Source of the DNA: Rubripirellula reticaptiva
GTDB lineage: Bacteria; Planctomycetota; Planctomycetia; Pirellulales; Pirellulaceae
Length of the DNA: 64,000 nucleotides
Direction: 5' to 3'
Assembly: GCF_007860175.1 (NCBI RefSeq)
Contig: NZ_SJPX01000003.1
Coordinates: 569,380 to 633,379 of the forward strand
The position numbers were made by a program, and so were the translations under genes. The notes under the pieces were generated by a model that saw only the letters and a list, made by a program, of their open reading frames with translations, was not told the origin of the DNA and did not search any database. Shown one piece after another: positions 50,737 to 57,998 of this stretch; the stretch's first letter is position 1; every line of letters starts with the position of its first letter.

Positions 50737-51081
50737 TTGCTGTTTCTCGTTTGCAGCGAAAAATCAGCTTGGTCGATCGGAAAAGGCCTGATTCAGCCGG
50801 GTTTCGCGCTTTAGCGTCGCTTGGGCAGCATGGTTTAAGTTGTTCCGGTTCTGATGATTCTTACTCTTTTGCCACTTCTATCGCCAAAGAAGCTAAGCCT
50901 TTTCGACTGACCTGGCCGATACTACCGTCATAACCCGAAGTTTTCCGGTTTGACGCGGCTTTTGTGGCCTTGTCGGAAGGAAACGGGGGGCGTCGAAAGT
51001 TGTTTCGGCGATTGGGATGACGGGAATCGGCTGCGGGTCGGTTCCCCGAGAAAAATTAACTGCAAGACGGTGGAACAAGCG
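50737..51081. other. Intergenic region upstream of the outer-membrane protein gene
   Basis: 345 bp between tadA and the next start. The upstream frame of the next gene stays open back to 50950 but reads as non-coding (odd composition, no signal peptide). I see no tRNA, repeat or clear promoter boxes. A GGTGGAA sits seven bases before the chosen ATG. Confidence 0.5.
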
Positions 51082-52287
51082 ATGTCGGTACGGAAGCTGA
51101 CTGCAAGTCTACTCACAGCCCTGGCGTTGCTGGGCGGAGTCGCATCGGTAGGCGCCCAGGAACATTTTCCTGCGGCTGATCCTTTCGCGTTCGATCCCGA
51201 CTTCAATTGGTTCGAGCCCGTCTACGACGTGGACTTGGCCGATATGAAGCCGAGTAAGCGAGCGCCAACAGGTTGGTTCGCGACATATGATCGCTTGAAC
51301 CTTTACGGCTCGCGTCCTGAACTGGACGAACCGGGCACCAACTTGTCAGGCACGACGAATGCCGAAACCAAGTTGGATTCGGGTTGGGGGCACCGATACG
51401 AAATCGGTTACATGCTTCCCGATGCCGACAAAGGCTGGACACTCAATTGGACTAGCAACAACGTTCACCAAGCCTACGCGGTTCGGCGTGAACGGTTTAA
51501 CCGGTACAACGGTGGTCAAGTCACGGGCGGCAGCGGTGACAGCGACGCTTTCGGCGCGTTCGGCTTTGAAACGCCACCCGGTGTCCGGAACAACGAAGGC
51601 TATAGCTATCGATTCATCGATATCGCGACGTCGGAAAACTTCATCAACTACAACAGCTACGAATTGAACAAGACGTGGCGAATGGAACCGTATCACTATG
51701 GTGGTATTCTAGAACCGTTGGTGGGTCTGCGTTGGATGCGAGTGAAGGACTACAACTTCTCGCAAAGCTTTAACGTTGACGTCAGCGACCCACTTCAGGG
51801 TGAGCCCATCGACAGCATTGTCGAGCAAATGACATCCGACAACGCGATCACTGACAACGACTTGTTGGGTGGGCAAGTGGGTTTCCGATACATGAAAGCG
51901 ATGGGTCGGTTCACGTACTCAAGCGACTTCAAGTGCTTCTTCGGCGGCAACTATCAGTGCTCGACCTACGATCGAACGATCGAACGCGTTGTATACGACA
52001 ACCCGGTGACCATCGGTGATCCACCGATCTTCATTGATCACGATAAGGATACGACCCGTCCTCAGTACACTCGCAACGAAGAGTTCTTTGTTGGATTCGA
52101 CGTCCGAGGCGAAGTTGGTTATCAGTTGACCAGGATGCTCCAAGTTCGTGCTGGCTTTCAAGTCATCGACATCGCTCGTGGCTTGTGGCGAGGCGGCTCA
52201 GGCACCGGTGGTGTCGTGTCGGCTGGCGACAACGATCAAGACTATGTCATGGTCGGCGGAACGTTCGGGTTGAGCCTGAACCACTAA
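51082..52287 (+). CDS. Predicted outer-membrane beta-barrel protein
   Basis: A 401-residue protein started at ATG 51082, with a clear signal peptide MSVRKLTASLLTALALLGG to SVGAQ. The mature part is rich in aromatic residues and alternates polar and hydrophobic positions, e.g. WGHRYEIGYMLP, GWTLNWTSNN, GILEPLVGLRWMRVKDY, VGFRYMKAMGRFTYSSDFK, GEVGYQLTRMLQVRAGFQ. It ends YVMVGGTFGLSLNH, like a last barrel strand. This fits the planctomycete outer-membrane barrel families (for example BBP7 type), though I cannot prove membership. The gene is followed by a strong terminator, consistent with an abundant monocistronic product. Confidence 0.75.
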   Translation: MSVRKLTASLLTALALLGGVASVGAQEHFPAADPFAFDPDFNWFEPVYDVDLADMKPSKRAPTGWFATYDRLNLYGSRPELDEPGTNLSGTTNAETKLDSGWGHRYEIGYMLPDADKGWTLNWTSNNVHQAYAVRRERFNRYNGGQVTGGSGDSDAFGAFGFETPPGVRNNEGYSYRFIDIATSENFINYNSYELNKTWRMEPYHYGGILEPLVGLRWMRVKDYNFSQSFNVDVSDPLQGEPIDSIVEQMTSDNAITDNDLLGGQVGFRYMKAMGRFTYSSDFKCFFGGNYQCSTYDRTIERVVYDNPVTIGDPPIFIDHDKDTTRPQYTRNEEFFVGFDVRGEVGYQLTRMLQVRAGFQVIDIARGLWRGGSGTGGVVSAGDNDQDYVMVGGTFGLSLNH

Positions 52288-52316
52288 GAAAAATCGTTAT
52301 CCCAATTGCGAAATCG

Positions 52317-52358
52317 AAAGCGGCTGCTGGAAGGAAACTTCCGGCGGCCGCTTTTTTT
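52317..52358 (+). terminator. Strong rho-independent terminator
   Basis: A 15-base stem (52319-52333 with 52338-52352, G-U pairs allowed, no mismatches) closed by a GAAA tetraloop (52334-52337) and followed by seven T (52352-52358). It lies 30 bp after the stop of the outer-membrane protein gene. Confidence 0.93.
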
Positions 52359-52910: not shown

Positions 52911-55900
52911 CTAAACGGCCGCTTTCTCTTCGACGCTGCCGCTACGGAGTTCCGCAATATGCTTGGCGGTCTGCGCGACTGTGAACCGAATCTGTTCTTC
53001 ACTGTGCTCGCTTGTCACGAAAAAACGTAACCTCGCAGCCGATTCGTCGACTGCGGGATACAAAATCGGTTGGACGTTGATGCCATCGGCCTTCAAACGG
53101 TTCGACAAACGAAGCGCGAGCATCGAATTGCCCGTAATGACAGGGACGACCGGCGTTCCGGCGCTATCGCCGGTGTCCAGGCCCGCTTCTTGACAAAGCG
53201 ACAAGAACAATTCGCTGCGACTGCGCAGTCGATCCACTCGGTCGGGTTCGCGCTCGAGCGTGTCGATTGCCGCGAGTGCGGCGGCAACTTGTGCGGGGGG
53301 CATTCCTACGCTGAACACAAAGCCGGGCGCGGTGTAACGCAGCAATTCGACTAACGCCTCGCTACCGGCGATGAAACCGCCGCACGATGCGGCACTCTTA
53401 CTTAACGTGCCCATCCAAATGTCGACGTCGCGTGCGTTGACACCGAAGTGTTCAGACATCCCTCGACCGGTCTTCCCCATCGTCCCGAAACTGTGGGCTT
53501 CATCGACCATCAACATCGCACGGTGCTTTTTCTTGACTTCGATGAACTTCGGCAGGTTCGAAAAGTCACCGTCCATGCTGTAGACGCCTTCGATGACGAC
53601 CAACACGCGACGATACTGATCTCGTAACTCGACTAGCATTCGGTCGAGTGCGTCGTAGTCGTTGTGCGGGAACGGTCGGCGACGCGCCCCGGAAAGCAAC
53701 GCGCCTTGGACAATGCTGTTGTGTGCTAAAGAGTCGTGAATAATCAAGTCGCCAGCACCGACCAAGTGGCCGATCGTCGTTTCATTGGTTGCGTGACCAC
53801 CGACCATTAAGATCGAATTGTCGACTCCGATCCAATTTGCGATCCGTTTTTCCAGTTGCCCGTGGATTGGTTTTTCGCCCGAAACCAAACGGCTGGCCGA
53901 CACGCTGGTGCCGTACTCGCGAACCGCATTGGCCGCAGCATTGGAAACGTCCGGGTGGCCGCTGAGTCCCAGGTAGTTGTAGCTGGCAAAACTGATCAGT
54001 TTTTTGCCGTCAACGATCGTCGTGTCGCCAACGATTCCGTCGTGGACAGTGAAGAACGGATTTGGCACACCGGTCATCAGCATCTGACGCATGGTCGTTT
54101 TCAGTCGACGGTACTCGGCGAACTGTTCAACGCTGTCTTCGGCTTCGACCGGCTCGACTTTAGCGGTGCGGACGCCCGTTGCTGTGATGCGAGAATCAGC
54201 TGTCATCGCATCGTCGTCGTGAATTTCGCCACGCAACATCGCTTCGGCGATCGATTCGCCGCCGGGTGGCAAATACCGCTGGATCGCAACTGCAGTTTGT
54301 CCGATGGTTTCGATTTCATCCAAAACTTGTTCGGGAAAGCGACCACCAAACGTGCGTTCTAGCTTTCTTGCGATTTCCAAACGTTCCAGACTGTCCAAAC
54401 CCAAATCCAACACGATGTTGGTGTCCAGGTTCAATTTTCCTGCCCGTTCGCCAGCGACGTGACGCACATGGTGACCGATGACTTCGACAATCGCGACGCT
54501 GACGTCGGATGCATCGATCGCCTGCGTACCGCTCGCCGAGGCTGCTTGCATCATCGGCGCAGCATCCGTTGGAGCGTTCCCACCGGATTCTTCCCAGCGG
54601 ACCCATTTGGCGATCAATTTCAAGTCGCCGTCTCGAACCGCGTGCAAGCAAGCGTGACGCTGGATTTTGCCGCTGCTGGTTTTCGGGATGCTACTGTTGC
54701 GGACCAAGTAAACCGCGTCCGGAGGTAACTCGTGCTCGGACGTTACGGCTCGCCGAATTGCTTGGATTTGTGAATCCCAATCGATGTTTCGGTCGCGAAT
54801 GACTTCGGCAACGATCACCAACTGTTCGCGACCATCATGCTCCATCGCAACCGCCCCGACCGATCCAGCTTGAACGGCCTCAGACGCTGATTCGACCGTT
54901 TCTTCGATGTCTTGCGGGTATCGATTCACGCCACGGACAATGATCATGTCCTTCAAACGGCCGGAAACGTAGAGCTGGTTTTCGTACAAGAATCCCAGGT
55001 CACCGGTCCGCAAGAACGGCCCGTCGCCATCGATCGTTGTGGCTCGAAACGTTTGGTCTGTTGCCTCTTTGCGACGATAGTAACCTTGTCCGACCGATGG
55101 GCTTTGGACCCAAATTTCGCCGATCGAATCACCCGGCAGTTTCTCGCGAGTTTCAGGGTCGACGATTAGAACCCGTTCGTTTGATAACACGGCGCCACAG
55201 CCCACTAGCTGGCGAGCCGCGTTATGTTCGGACGAAACCGGACGTACGATTTTCTGTTCCAATCCGCGACCGTCAAACGTCGTGATCACTGGACGCGGTG
55301 TCGTCGGTCCGCCAGTGACAATCAACGTGGTTTCGGCCATTCCGTAACATGGCAGCGAGGCGGACGCATTGAAGCCGAGCTTACCGAATCGATCGGAAAA
55401 CTCTCGCAGCGTTGATTCGCGAATAGGTTCAGCGCCGTTGAAGGCGATTTTCCACTGCGAAAGATCAACGCCCTCGAGTTCTGAATCCAAAATTTTGTCA
55501 GCACAGAGCTGGTACGAAAAGTTGGGACCGCCGGAAATCGAGACGTTGTATTTCGATATCCCTTGCAGCCATCGCACCGGACGTTGCAAGAACGTCATCG
55601 GGCTCATCAACACGTTTGGCCGTCCCATGTACAACGGCATCAGGACTCCGCCGACCAATCCCATGTCGTGATACGTCGGCAACCAACTCATGCCGACAAA
55701 TTCGTGGTCTGGTTCAAACGCTTCCAAGATCAATTCACTGTTTGCGATCAGGTTGCCCTGGTTCAGCATCACGCCCTTGGGCGAACCCGTCGATCCGCTG
55801 GTGTACTGCAACACCGCCAACGAGTGCTCGCTAAGTCTTGGGCGTCGCCAGCCGGCTGCGTTTCGGCATTTGGGATCGTCGGTACCAAGCAACTGCACGC

Positions 55901-56348
55901 CGATCAAATCATCGTGCTGTTGGTCGCCGGAAAGTTGTTCAACGATGCTGCGGGTCGACAGTGCCCACCGCGCATTGGCGTCCACCACGATCGAACGAAT
56001 TCGCGAAGCCTTGCGGTTTCGCCGCGGCGGATAGGCTGGGACAGCGATTGCGCCAGCCGCATGACAGGCAAAGAACCCAGTGACAAATTCCAGACCGGGC
56101 GGGTAAACCAACAGGACTCGGTCGCCTGCTCGAACGCGACATTCCGACTGCATGTAGCCCGCCAGCGCGCGCACTTCGTCCCACAACTGGCTGTACGTCA
56201 GTCGTTGTTCGACCGATTCGGTATCGGTGAAGATATACGCAGTGTCGCTCGGTCGGTGCGCAGCCCAATGTTCCAAGACCGATACGAAATGGTCTCTCGG
56301 AGGCGACTGGGTGCCGAAATACGTGTGCAAGTCCACGGAGCGAATCAC
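52911..56348 (-). CDS. Fatty acyl-AMP ligase / acyl carrier protein / alpha-oxoamine synthase fusion
   Basis: A 1145-residue three-domain protein. Residues 1-590 are a fatty acyl-AMP ligase: AVPAYPPRR (102-110), YTSGSTGSPKG (182-192), WLPTYHDMGLVGG (223-234), YGMAET (335-340) and catalytic Lys561 (SSGKIQR). Residues 615-695 are an acyl carrier protein with phosphopantetheine Ser653 in DLGLDSLERLE. Residues 745-1135 are a PLP alpha-oxoamine synthase (BioF/serine palmitoyltransferase type): ASYNYLGLS, VSASRLVSGE, DEAHSFG (949-955) and PLP Lys984 in GTLSKSAASCGG. The expected chemistry is to load a fatty acid on its own carrier and condense it with an amino acid to an amino-ketone. Divergent from the asparagine-synthetase-like gene. 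Confidence 0.92.
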   Translation of the reverse strand: MIRSVDLHTYFGTQSPPRDHFVSVLEHWAAHRPSDTAYIFTDTESVEQRLTYSQLWDEVRALAGYMQSECRVRAGDRVLLVYPPGLEFVTGFFACHAAGAIAVPAYPPRRNRKASRIRSIVVDANARWALSTRSIVEQLSGDQQHDDLIGVQLLGTDDPKCRNAAGWRRPRLSEHSLAVLQYTSGSTGSPKGVMLNQGNLIANSELILEAFEPDHEFVGMSWLPTYHDMGLVGGVLMPLYMGRPNVLMSPMTFLQRPVRWLQGISKYNVSISGGPNFSYQLCADKILDSELEGVDLSQWKIAFNGAEPIRESTLREFSDRFGKLGFNASASLPCYGMAETTLIVTGGPTTPRPVITTFDGRGLEQKIVRPVSSEHNAARQLVGCGAVLSNERVLIVDPETREKLPGDSIGEIWVQSPSVGQGYYRRKEATDQTFRATTIDGDGPFLRTGDLGFLYENQLYVSGRLKDMIIVRGVNRYPQDIEETVESASEAVQAGSVGAVAMEHDGREQLVIVAEVIRDRNIDWDSQIQAIRRAVTSEHELPPDAVYLVRNSSIPKTSSGKIQRHACLHAVRDGDLKLIAKWVRWEESGGNAPTDAAPMMQAASASGTQAIDASDVSVAIVEVIGHHVRHVAGERAGKLNLDTNIVLDLGLDSLERLEIARKLERTFGGRFPEQVLDEIETIGQTAVAIQRYLPPGGESIAEAMLRGEIHDDDAMTADSRITATGVRTAKVEPVEAEDSVEQFAEYRRLKTTMRQMLMTGVPNPFFTVHDGIVGDTTIVDGKKLISFASYNYLGLSGHPDVSNAAANAVREYGTSVSASRLVSGEKPIHGQLEKRIANWIGVDNSILMVGGHATNETTIGHLVGAGDLIIHDSLAHNSIVQGALLSGARRRPFPHNDYDALDRMLVELRDQYRRVLVVIEGVYSMDGDFSNLPKFIEVKKKHRAMLMVDEAHSFGTMGKTGRGMSEHFGVNARDVDIWMGTLSKSAASCGGFIAGSEALVELLRYTAPGFVFSVGMPPAQVAAALAAIDTLEREPDRVDRLRSRSELFLSLCQEAGLDTGDSAGTPVVPVITGNSMLALRLSNRLKADGINVQPILYPAVDESAARLRFFVTSEHSEEQIRFTVAQTAKHIAELRSGSVEEKAAV

Positions 56349-56522
56349 CGATTGGTTTGCGGGAAAAAAAACGAAGGAACTGAGATCGGGCCTAATACGT
56401 TAACCTGTTTCAAACAATCCTTTAGAATACCGAAACGGTCATTGGCGTCATCGTGGCACTGTGAGTTTCGGAAGAAAACGGATCAAACTACCTGATCCCT
56501 ACCGATTCCAAGCTTTGTGCGG

Positions 56523-57998
56523 ATGTCGCACCTGGACAAGCCGAGTCACGATTCTAATCAACCTCAATCTTTCAACCGACTAAAGATGCCGACTTCCAAA
56601 CCAACCGCCGGTAACGAGTCTCAGCAACCAAAACAATCTATAGCCGACATGGAATCCCCCCCGGTGGTTGGTCAGCCGATGGCATTGGTCGACCGAGTGG
56701 TCAACTTGCTTGATCCGGCCGGGAACATCTTTATTGGGACCAGTTTCGATGATGCACGAATTGCCGTGCGCAGCGGTAACGTCGACGCGATTCGTCGAAT
56801 CGGCGGTCAATTCGCGATCTTGGAACAATCCGGCAAGACCCTTCGCATGGCCCGTTCGATTGGCCGCCCGATGCGATATTTTCTGGCCAAACGAGCCGAA
56901 GGGCCGGCGTTAATCGTTGCCGAACGGATGGACGAGATCGCCGAGCAACTTGAAAAAGAAGGGCTGATCGACCAGTTTCGTCCGGCTTACACGCGAATGG
57001 TGCCGGCTCACCATCTGTTGGAACTGCAATTGGTCGGTTGTCCGGATCCCAACCCAAAATTGCATCGGTTTTTTGCACCCCAGCGAAATCGTTTGCCCGC
57101 CAAGATTGACGAAATTGGACAGGCGTACATTGGACGTTTGGCCGAGTCGATCGACGGATGGCTGGAAACGATTTCGCCAGACGAGCCGATCGGCGTGATG
57201 TTCAGCGGCGGCGTCGACAGCGGCGCGGTGCTGATGGTGTTGGATTTCCTGGTCCGACGTCGCGGCCAGTCGCCATCGCGAATCAAAGCGTTCACGTTGT
57301 CCGTCGGCCCCGATTCAACCGATTCACAGCAAGCGGCTGAGTTTTTGAAACGGGTCAATCGCGAAATGTTTTTGGAAGTCGTCACGGTGCCAGTGTCTTC
57401 GGTGTCGTGGCGAGACGCGGTGCGAGTGATCGAGGACTACAAGCCGCTTGATGTTCAGTCGGCGACGATGGGGTTGGCACTGCTGAAAGAAGTTCGCCGG
57501 CGCTATCCGGATTGGATCCACTTGATCGATGGCGACGGTGGCGACGAAAACCTAAAGGACTACCCCATCGAAGAAAACCCGGAACTGACCGTCCGCAGCG
57601 TGCTGGGCAATCGGATGCTGTATCAAGAAGGCTGGGGCGTTGATGCGGTCAAGCATTCTTTGACTTACAGCGGCGGGCAGAGCCGCGGTCATGTGCGAAC
57701 CAGTGCACCGGCTACGTCACTGGGATTTCGCGGATTTAGTCCGTTTGCGGTTCCCGACGTGATCGAAGTTGCCGAGGCGATTCCGTTTGTTGAATTAACG
57801 GACTGGGATCACGAAAAACTGTACGACCTAAAAGGCCAAGTTGTCGCATCCGGCGTTCGTCAGATCACGGGCGCCGAAATGCCAGCTTTCCCGAAACAGC
57901 GTTTCCAACGTGGCGCCGTCGACGCAAAAACATTCGAAGCGATGTTCCCCACCTCGGACCGCGAATATCGCCAAGCGTTTAGCGAACTGTTCGGGTAA
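56523..57998 (+). CDS. Asparagine-synthetase-like protein lacking the glutaminase cysteine
   Basis: A 491-residue protein started at ATG 56523; GTG 56517 and ATGs at 56586 and 56649 are alternatives. Counting from GTG 56517, residues about 65-190 resemble a shrunken class II glutaminase domain (IRRIGGQFAILEQSGKTLRMAR, GRPMRYFLAK), but there is no Cys at position 2 and a 50-residue Gln/Ser-rich leader is present, so glutamine use is doubtful. Residues 205-490 are the synthetase domain: PP-loop MFSGGVDSGAVL (228-239) for ATP and DGDGGDENLKDYP (338-350) for the adenylate site. Beta-lactam synthetases show the same loss of the Cys. It may form an amide from a bound carboxylate. Divergent from the acyl ligase fusion, 168 bp apart. 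Confidence 0.83.
   Translation: MSHLDKPSHDSNQPQSFNRLKMPTSKPTAGNESQQPKQSIADMESPPVVGQPMALVDRVVNLLDPAGNIFIGTSFDDARIAVRSGNVDAIRRIGGQFAILEQSGKTLRMARSIGRPMRYFLAKRAEGPALIVAERMDEIAEQLEKEGLIDQFRPAYTRMVPAHHLLELQLVGCPDPNPKLHRFFAPQRNRLPAKIDEIGQAYIGRLAESIDGWLETISPDEPIGVMFSGGVDSGAVLMVLDFLVRRRGQSPSRIKAFTLSVGPDSTDSQQAAEFLKRVNREMFLEVVTVPVSSVSWRDAVRVIEDYKPLDVQSATMGLALLKEVRRRYPDWIHLIDGDGGDENLKDYPIEENPELTVRSVLGNRMLYQEGWGVDAVKHSLTYSGGQSRGHVRTSAPATSLGFRGFSPFAVPDVIEVAEAIPFVELTDWDHEKLYDLKGQVVASGVRQITGAEMPAFPKQRFQRGAVDAKTFEAMFPTSDREYRQAFSELFG

Follow-up and report, generated by a model that had tools for sequence, protein, structure and literature searches.

Do the two head-to-head genes at positions 52,911 to 57,998 of a 64-kb stretch of the Rubripirellula reticaptiva genome belong to one pathway, and what would that pathway make? 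The stretch (here, the window) lies on contig C3 (NZ_SJPX01000003.1) of the 7.85-Mb genome. One gene encodes a fusion of a fatty acyl-AMP ligase (FAAL), an acyl carrier protein (ACP) domain, and an alpha-oxoamine synthase (AOS) (here, FUS); the gene facing it encodes an asparagine-synthetase-like protein (here, ASN). An initial annotation had proposed that FUS takes a free fatty acid to an amino-ketone without coenzyme A (CoA) and that ASN closes or caps the product through an amide. Our analysis of 119 genomes from 68 genera of the family, including that of R. reticaptiva, makes it rather likely that FUS is, in one chain, a synthase of the sphingoid-base type (yielding 3-keto long-chain amines) that feeds a sphingolipid-type lipid and that ASN stands outside this pathway. 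The genes and domains concerned are the following.

52911..56348, minus strand: FUS, one open reading frame (ORF) with a GTG start, 1145 aa
54609..56276, minus strand: fatty acyl-AMP ligase domain of FUS, residues 25-580, with the C-terminal Lys561 (Pfam AMP-binding and AMP-dom_DIP2-like)
54291..54467, minus strand: acyl carrier domain of FUS, residues 628-686, with the phosphopantetheine Ser653 in the motif DLGLDSLE (Pfam PP-binding)
52986..54002, minus strand: alpha-oxoamine synthase domain of FUS, residues 783-1121 (Pfam Aminotran_1_2, tree, and conserved columns)
56517..57998, plus strand: ASN, asparagine-synthetase/beta-lactam-synthetase-like, without the glutaminase Cys, 493 aa (Pfam, alignments, AlphaFold2 [AF2] model, and Foldseek)

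The Pfam domains follow one another on FUS in the order AMP-binding (25-424, 226 bits), AMP-dom_DIP2-like (467-580), PP-binding (628-686), and Aminotran_1_2 (783-1121), which bears out the initial description of a single 1145-residue chain holding a FAAL, a carrier, and a pyridoxal phosphate (PLP)-dependent oxoamine synthase; the active-site residues named there, Ser653 and Lys984, are exactly in place. In NCBIfam, the best matches include several fatty-acid--AMP ligase models, none of which reaches its cut-off. The residues expected of the AOS family are all present, namely the PLP lysine (Lys984), the stacking histidine (His876), the Asp/His pair (Asp949 and His952), and the arginine (Arg1108), and these catalytic residues are kept in 45 to 47 of the 47 rows of the AOS clade to which FUS belongs (see below). 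As an exception, one FUS relative (L097, G001:C13) has an AOS domain without the PLP lysine (GSLGTTL) and probably also without the stacking His, and thus may carry a dead or repurposed domain.

FUS is widespread in the family. Counted among the matches listed, so that totals are lower bounds, relatives of more than 1000 residues exist in one piece in at least 81 of the 119 genomes (47-78% identity, with one exception of 36% in G063) and in two pieces of one frame in 10 more. With a presence in at least 91 of the 119 genomes, FUS is therefore a conserved gene and not a chance fusion.

The known system that FUS resembles is that of AasR, AcpR, and serine palmitoyltransferase (SPT) in Caulobacter crescentus and Escherichia coli BL21 (PMC9386255), which likewise combines an acyl-ACP synthetase, a dedicated carrier, and a PLP enzyme that condenses a fatty acid with an amino acid under decarboxylation. 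In the parts of that paper drawn on here, AasR acylates AcpR, acyl-AcpR is the preferred substrate of SPT in both Caulobacter and E. coli, and YghO is listed as an N-acyltransferase; the functions and order of the Caulobacter sphingolipid genes are treated in PMC11324152, likewise cited in part. The E. coli genes of PMC9386255, yghO among them, match an annotated locus (L154) in the plasmid collection. All three domain types of this system are found by Pfam in the FUS chain. However, AasR, AcpR, and SPT are three separate proteins, whereas FUS is one chain, with 32% identity to E. coli AasR and 35% to SPT, and its AOS belongs to a different clade.

In the reaction that we infer for FUS, the FAAL domain would adenylate a free fatty acid to acyl-AMP, and the acyl group would be loaded onto the chain's own carrier domain, on the phosphopantetheine at Ser653. 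In the AOS domain, an amino acid held as the PLP aldimine at Lys984 would attack the acyl-thioester, with loss of CO2 and release of a 2-amino-3-ketone; with serine as donor, the product would be 3-keto-sphinganine. An N-acyltransferase of the YghO/CerS type, whose gene lies at another place in the genome, may then N-acylate this product, and FUS would most likely feed a sphingolipid-type outer-membrane lipid. A route to an amino-ketone that bypasses CoA, the chemistry implied by the initial annotation, is plausible, has a direct precedent in the three-protein system, and fits the domain order and the active-site residues, as judged from the sequence.

Blastopirellula is a close relative. Plant LCB2a takes acyl-CoA, and neither it nor the Sphingobacterium SPT is known to have a FAAL or an ACP in its chain. 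Both (PDB 7yjo and 3a2b, respectively) share the AOS family and the catalytic residues with FUS, and LCB2a, on a long branch, is the nearest reference in our tree. Bacterial SPT is described as taking acyl-CoA in the cited part of PMC10196870. The one-chain architecture itself has been in print since 2013, without a function: Table 2 of PMC3870968 gives the layout A-CP-PLP2 for A3ZWL3 of Blastopirellula marina and A1ZVW4 of Microscilla marina and assigns no product there. These proteins are likened to FUS by their tabulated layout, not by sequence. In the open-licence literature, we found no paper that has a fatty acyl-AMP ligase and an oxoamine synthase together.

Phylogeny places the AOS domain on the side of SPT. 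In the AOS tree (IQ-TREE, 40 of the 67 rows; an earlier quick tree held all 67), FUS, the AOS domains of long, polyketide synthase (PKS)-sized proteins, and a stand-alone AOS from a Pseudomonas plasmid form one clade (support, 100/98). Its sister is plant LCB2a (95/94), and it stands on the bacterial SPT/SulA side; because several branches in the tree are long, the link to LCB2a is tentative. BioF, KBL, and HemA are separate from FUS (93/92), and a grouping of FUS with them is rejected by the approximately unbiased (AU) test (p 0.030). The comparison with SPT, BioF, KBL, and HemA that had been suggested initially thus speaks for the SPT side, and FUS does not group with BioF-type biotin enzymes. 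That FUS should nevertheless be such an enzyme has a negligible chance: bioF (TIGR00858) is the best NCBIfam model for its AOS part (350 bits, under the cut-off of 426), but the R. reticaptiva genome carries a separate BioF-like gene that scores better on the same model (401 bits, also under the cut-off), as well as a separate HemA/KBL-like gene, and no biotin gene was recognized by eye among the listed ORFs of the window. The BioF assignment was rejected on the tree, the AU test, and the separate, better match.

Also on the SPT side of the tree is a sulfonolipid enzyme that counts as an alternative for FUS, namely SulA, the cysteate acyl-ACP transferase, which likewise uses acyl-ACP according to the cited part of PMC9304779. 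A Legionella lytica plasmid, moreover, pairs an AOS with a gene annotated as phosphosulfolactate synthase, and the latter gene also gives a FAAL-like match. However, the position of SulA Lys281 is Lys in 0 of the 47 rows of the FUS AOS clade, and the SulA rows form a clade of their own (100/100), which makes a SulA-type function highly improbable for FUS; it was rejected on these two grounds. The Legionella AOS row groups with SulA (quick tree, 67 rows), and its locus (L155, NZ_CP071528.1), with a SulA-type AOS and the phosphosulfolactate synthase-annotated gene, represents a possible capnine-type route.

Several observations weigh against a sphingoid-base synthase. (i) The clade formed by the bacterial SPTs in the tree does not take in the FUS AOS, whose own clade includes the PKS-sized proteins and the AOS that stands beside a PKS in the Pseudomonas plasmid with capsule genes. 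(ii) The FUS FAAL is nearer to cyanobacterial FAALs (47-48% identity), several of which are annotated as nonribosomal peptide synthetases (NRPS), than to AasR (32%), and the FUS carrier domain does not match E. coli AcpR significantly (E = 5). (iii) Where SPT has an Ala in the pocket, FUS has Val1014; across the 47 rows of the FUS clade, Val occurs here 32 times and Ala 9 times. (iv) The gene of the YghO homologue lies apart from FUS, its product is covered by no Pfam or NCBIfam model, and CerR has only five weak matches in the R. reticaptiva genome (best, 28% identity, E = 1.6e-15). (v) An SPT-resembling Nostoc AOS made no 3-keto-sphinganine, as reported in the cited part of PMC8895605. The motif GTLSKS of FUS, set against the GTFSKS that PMC10196870, as far as cited here, calls characteristic of SPT, was instead counted, with reserve, on the favorable side.

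The company of PKS-sized proteins and capsule-type genes in the AOS clade, the cyanobacterial, partly NRPS-annotated FAAL relatives, and the Val in the pocket would all suit a different role, in which the amino-ketone is a signal or natural-product building block made from Ala, Gly, or another amino acid, as with polyketide-offloading AOS domains. We regard this role as possible but doubtful. It accords poorly with the presence of FUS in so large a share of the family and with the co-occurring YghO/CerS-type gene; furthermore, among the recurring neighbor families, the ones annotated in 41 FUS loci, there are only ASN, an outer-membrane barrel gene (see below), and, in deep-branching loci, a few others.

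Three observations from the same searches may be recorded. Open frames of about 2,560-2,650 aa with a FUS-like ACP-AOS or AOS part occur, among the matches listed, in G009, G018, G020, G043, G062, G073, G080, G090, G104, G107, and G114; they are PKS-like by size alone, and in G043 the AOS part is C-terminal. The Pseudomonas plasmid locus (L153, NZ_CP016850.1) consists of a type I PKS followed by the stand-alone AOS (55.6% identity to the window AOS) among capsule-type genes. The R. reticaptiva genome has a further FAAL-type gene (L203, G000:C4:738728-740545; ORF of 725 aa).

For a sphingoid-base synthase, the distribution of the putative N-acyltransferase gene is supportive only. Among the matches listed, a YghO homologue is present in 118 of the 119 family genomes (E = 5e-67 in R. 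reticaptiva). In f3, a neighboring family of the same class in which no fusion was seen, 0 of the 12 sampled genomes have one. Across the phylum, YghO homologues are found in 95 of 246 genomes and fusion-search matches in 21 (two candidates scored per genome, E <= 1e-100, the limit to which every statement of no fusion seen refers), and the co-occurrence of YghO and FUS is therefore weak evidence. The sole recurrent direct neighbor of the YghO homologue is a beta-ketoacyl synthase gene, which directly follows it in 9 of 19 loci, including that of R. reticaptiva (L224:9499-12159; G000:C1). No sphingolipid operon was found around the YghO/CerS homologue in 20 loci examined, in one of which ORF picking left the gene unplaced.

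FUS and ASN are rarely adjacent, an outcome that the initial annotation had itself named as refuting the pairing. Strong ASN relatives exist in 69 of the 119 family genomes. Both genes are present in 60, FUS without ASN in 36, and ASN without a whole FUS seen (among the matches listed) in 9 (Fisher p 0.06); this count takes in five cut copies of FUS, and at least two of the nine genomes (G002 and G076) have FUS split over contigs. The two genes are adjacent in only 10 of the 60 (G000, G046, G092, G116, G055, G011, G075, G109, G028, and G083). In family f3, ASN is present in 9 of 12 sampled genomes, and the fusion was seen in none. Among public ASN loci, the fusion is near ASN in 9 of 75; by their titles, seven of the nine are Rhodopirellula or Rubripirellula, one is Planctomycetes bacterium K23_9, and one is a Planctomycetota bacterium. 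These loci represent the best 80 of 548 relatives, of which 75 gave an ASN ORF, and are hence biased to the nearest kin of the window; some of the genomes overlap with the 119, and flanks stop at contig ends.

The fusion-adjacent ASN genes form one clade (16 rows; Shimodaira-Hasegawa-like approximate likelihood ratio test support, 92) in a quick tree from which duplicate ASN rows and L025, whose ASN is split by a stop, were omitted and in which 13 fusion-adjacent rows stand for 10 genes, three having been entered twice. The tree implies one gain and one loss of adjacency, the loss being in the sister genus g37, which speaks against a mere accident of position. We see in the FUS-ASN pair a neighborhood inherited within a single lineage, which is functional with only a small probability, and a two-gene pathway was rejected as the principal explanation on the adjacency and co-occurrence counts. 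The proposal that ASN closes or caps the FUS product thus loses its footing, all the more as ASN has other partners (see below).

It is nonetheless conceivable, though unlikely, that the divergent pair is functional and that ASN, alone or with these partners (a radical S-adenosylmethionine [SAM] protein and a flavoenzyme), amidates or cyclizes the FUS product. The adjacency has been kept in four genera (g1, g12, g29, and g55) although most other neighbors changed, and the layout is head to head; in G083, a fast-evolving ASN (L080, G083:C1:5043110-5044429) stands beside FUS, and the matches listed for that genome include neither a close radical SAM partner nor a close flavoenzyme partner. On the other hand, 36 genomes have FUS without ASN, adjacency was lost in g37, and f3 has ASN with the radical SAM gene alongside in 7 of its 9 ASN loci and no fusion seen. 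In G109 and G055, the gene order is radical SAM, ASN, FUS.

What, then, is ASN? Pfam finds only the Asn_synthase domain (222-356), and the SGGxDS and DGDGGDEN columns are invariant in an alignment of 32 ASN sequences. The initial annotation was right that the glutaminase cysteine is lost, as no conserved Cys was found at the N terminus in a 60-row alignment (which holds the window gene twice and some loci in duplicate); beyond the loss of Cys, however, the N-domain is a truncated glutaminase-type fold. The spacer of 168 bp between the genes, in contrast, probably does not hold. Because the alignment of relatives begins only near residue 52 of ASN and the predicted local distance difference test (pLDDT) score stays below 50 over residues 1-56 (mean of the AF2 model, 82.7), the true start is probably the ATG at 56649 (M45) or 56679 (M55), and the spacer would then be about 300 bp. 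A glutamine-hydrolyzing asparagine synthetase was rejected on the missing Cys, the truncated domain, and a TIGR01536 score of 40.8 bits against a cut-off of 267. Foldseek matches the ASN model to beta-lactam synthetase (1mc1; E = 3e-12, TM 0.56) and to human asparagine synthetase (9b6c; E = 4e-12). ASN shares the fold and the ATP-pyrophosphatase motif with beta-lactam and asparagine synthetases (1mc1; 1ct9 and 9b6c), and a fold without the glutaminase Cys is a feature of beta-lactam synthetases; it differs from both in its truncated N-domain, at about 16% identity, and neither is clearly nearer. No ASN relatives were found in plasmid records at E = 1e-5.

ASN co-occurs closely with two other genes. 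ASN and a radical SAM gene resembling that of the archaeosine enzyme RaSEA are both present in 66 genomes, ASN only in 3, the radical SAM gene only in 1 (its set contains one 211-aa fragment, in G014), and neither in 49 (p 1e-28); the two genes adjoin in 46 of the 66. ASN and a halogenase-like flavoenzyme are, among the matches listed, both present in 65 genomes, the discordant genomes numbering 4 and 5 (or 6 with G065). The flavoenzyme was counted at E <= 1e-30 and without G065 (E = 1.5e-44, 28% identity), the inclusion of which gives a set of 71. In the loci read, the three genes usually run in the same direction, in the order ASN, radical SAM, flavoenzyme; in R. reticaptiva, the latter two genes overlap on contig C4 (789945-792214; L133:9946-12215), apart from ASN. 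In the 75 public ASN loci, the radical SAM gene is near in 25 and the flavoenzyme in 23. The radical SAM partner resembles RaSEA but is not RaSEA, the three such proteins scanned scoring 70-110 bits on TIGR01210 against a cut-off of 212.

There is about an even chance, in our view, that ASN is an amide or lactam synthetase in an undescribed set with the RaSEA-like and halogenase-like proteins, making an amide-bonded metabolite or modification, that this set is widespread in Planctomycetota, with ASN relatives also in genomes labelled Rhodothermales, and that one lineage captured ASN beside FUS. That ASN is the amide-forming member of a set with these two genes, and no part of the FUS pathway, belongs to the explanation that we hold rather likely. 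We found no description of the set in limited searches of the open-licence literature, and this reading frees ASN for study with its real partners.

On its other side, FUS has a neighbor that the earlier account of the locus left unmentioned.

50950..52287, plus strand: BBP7-like outer-membrane beta-barrel gene, with a probable signal peptide from the M at 51082, convergent to FUS at the FUS 3' end
52316..52355, plus strand: terminator-like hairpin of 18 pairs after the barrel gene, between the convergent genes (pattern match only; 10 such sites in the region versus 8.3 in shuffles)

Pfam BBP7 scores 24.9 bits on the protein, just under the cut-off of 26. The AF2 model (mean pLDDT, 70.7) has an N-terminal helix followed by long strands up to the C terminus, and Foldseek matches it to a type IV secretion system porin (1.8e-7) and to OmpT-type barrels, with FadL weaker. 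Judged from this model, the gene very probably encodes an outer-membrane barrel.

Relatives of the barrel protein are present at E <= 1e-5 in 102 of the 119 genomes, some of them short or weak. With only the best barrel match per genome considered, 89 genomes have both genes. In 37 of them, from 26 of 56 genera, the barrel gene lies no more than 3 kb from FUS, and in the other 52 it is not beside FUS; by eye, 36 of these 37 barrel genes converge on the 3' end of FUS, and the remaining one (G081) shares the strand of FUS. This count started from 94 fusion genomes, omitting G063 (36% identity) and the cut copies in G005, G034, and G079 and adding G002 and G043. In a hidden Markov model (HMM) scan, the barrel lies within 2 kb in 14 of 41 fusion loci, versus 2 matches in 1052 kb of other loci; the HMMs were trained on FUS-adjacent barrel genes, and the genome count (37 of 89) is independent of them. 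Because deep-branching loci share other neighbors too, the adjacency partly reflects slow rearrangement, yet it is far wider than the FUS-ASN link. The outer-membrane protein is thereby indicated as the neighbor gene to study beside FUS, in whose lipid pathway it may have a role.

New in our analysis are the family-wide spread of the one-chain enzyme, its outer-membrane neighbor, and the real partners of ASN. If FUS is indeed a sphingoid-base-type synthase, long-chain bases would arise in most planctomycetes of the family through channelling within a single polypeptide, without CoA. For the Spt-like proteins counted in 138 Planctomycetota metagenome-assembled genomes of a Black Sea survey, as given in the cited part of PMC11334938, a testable enzyme could then serve for follow-up.

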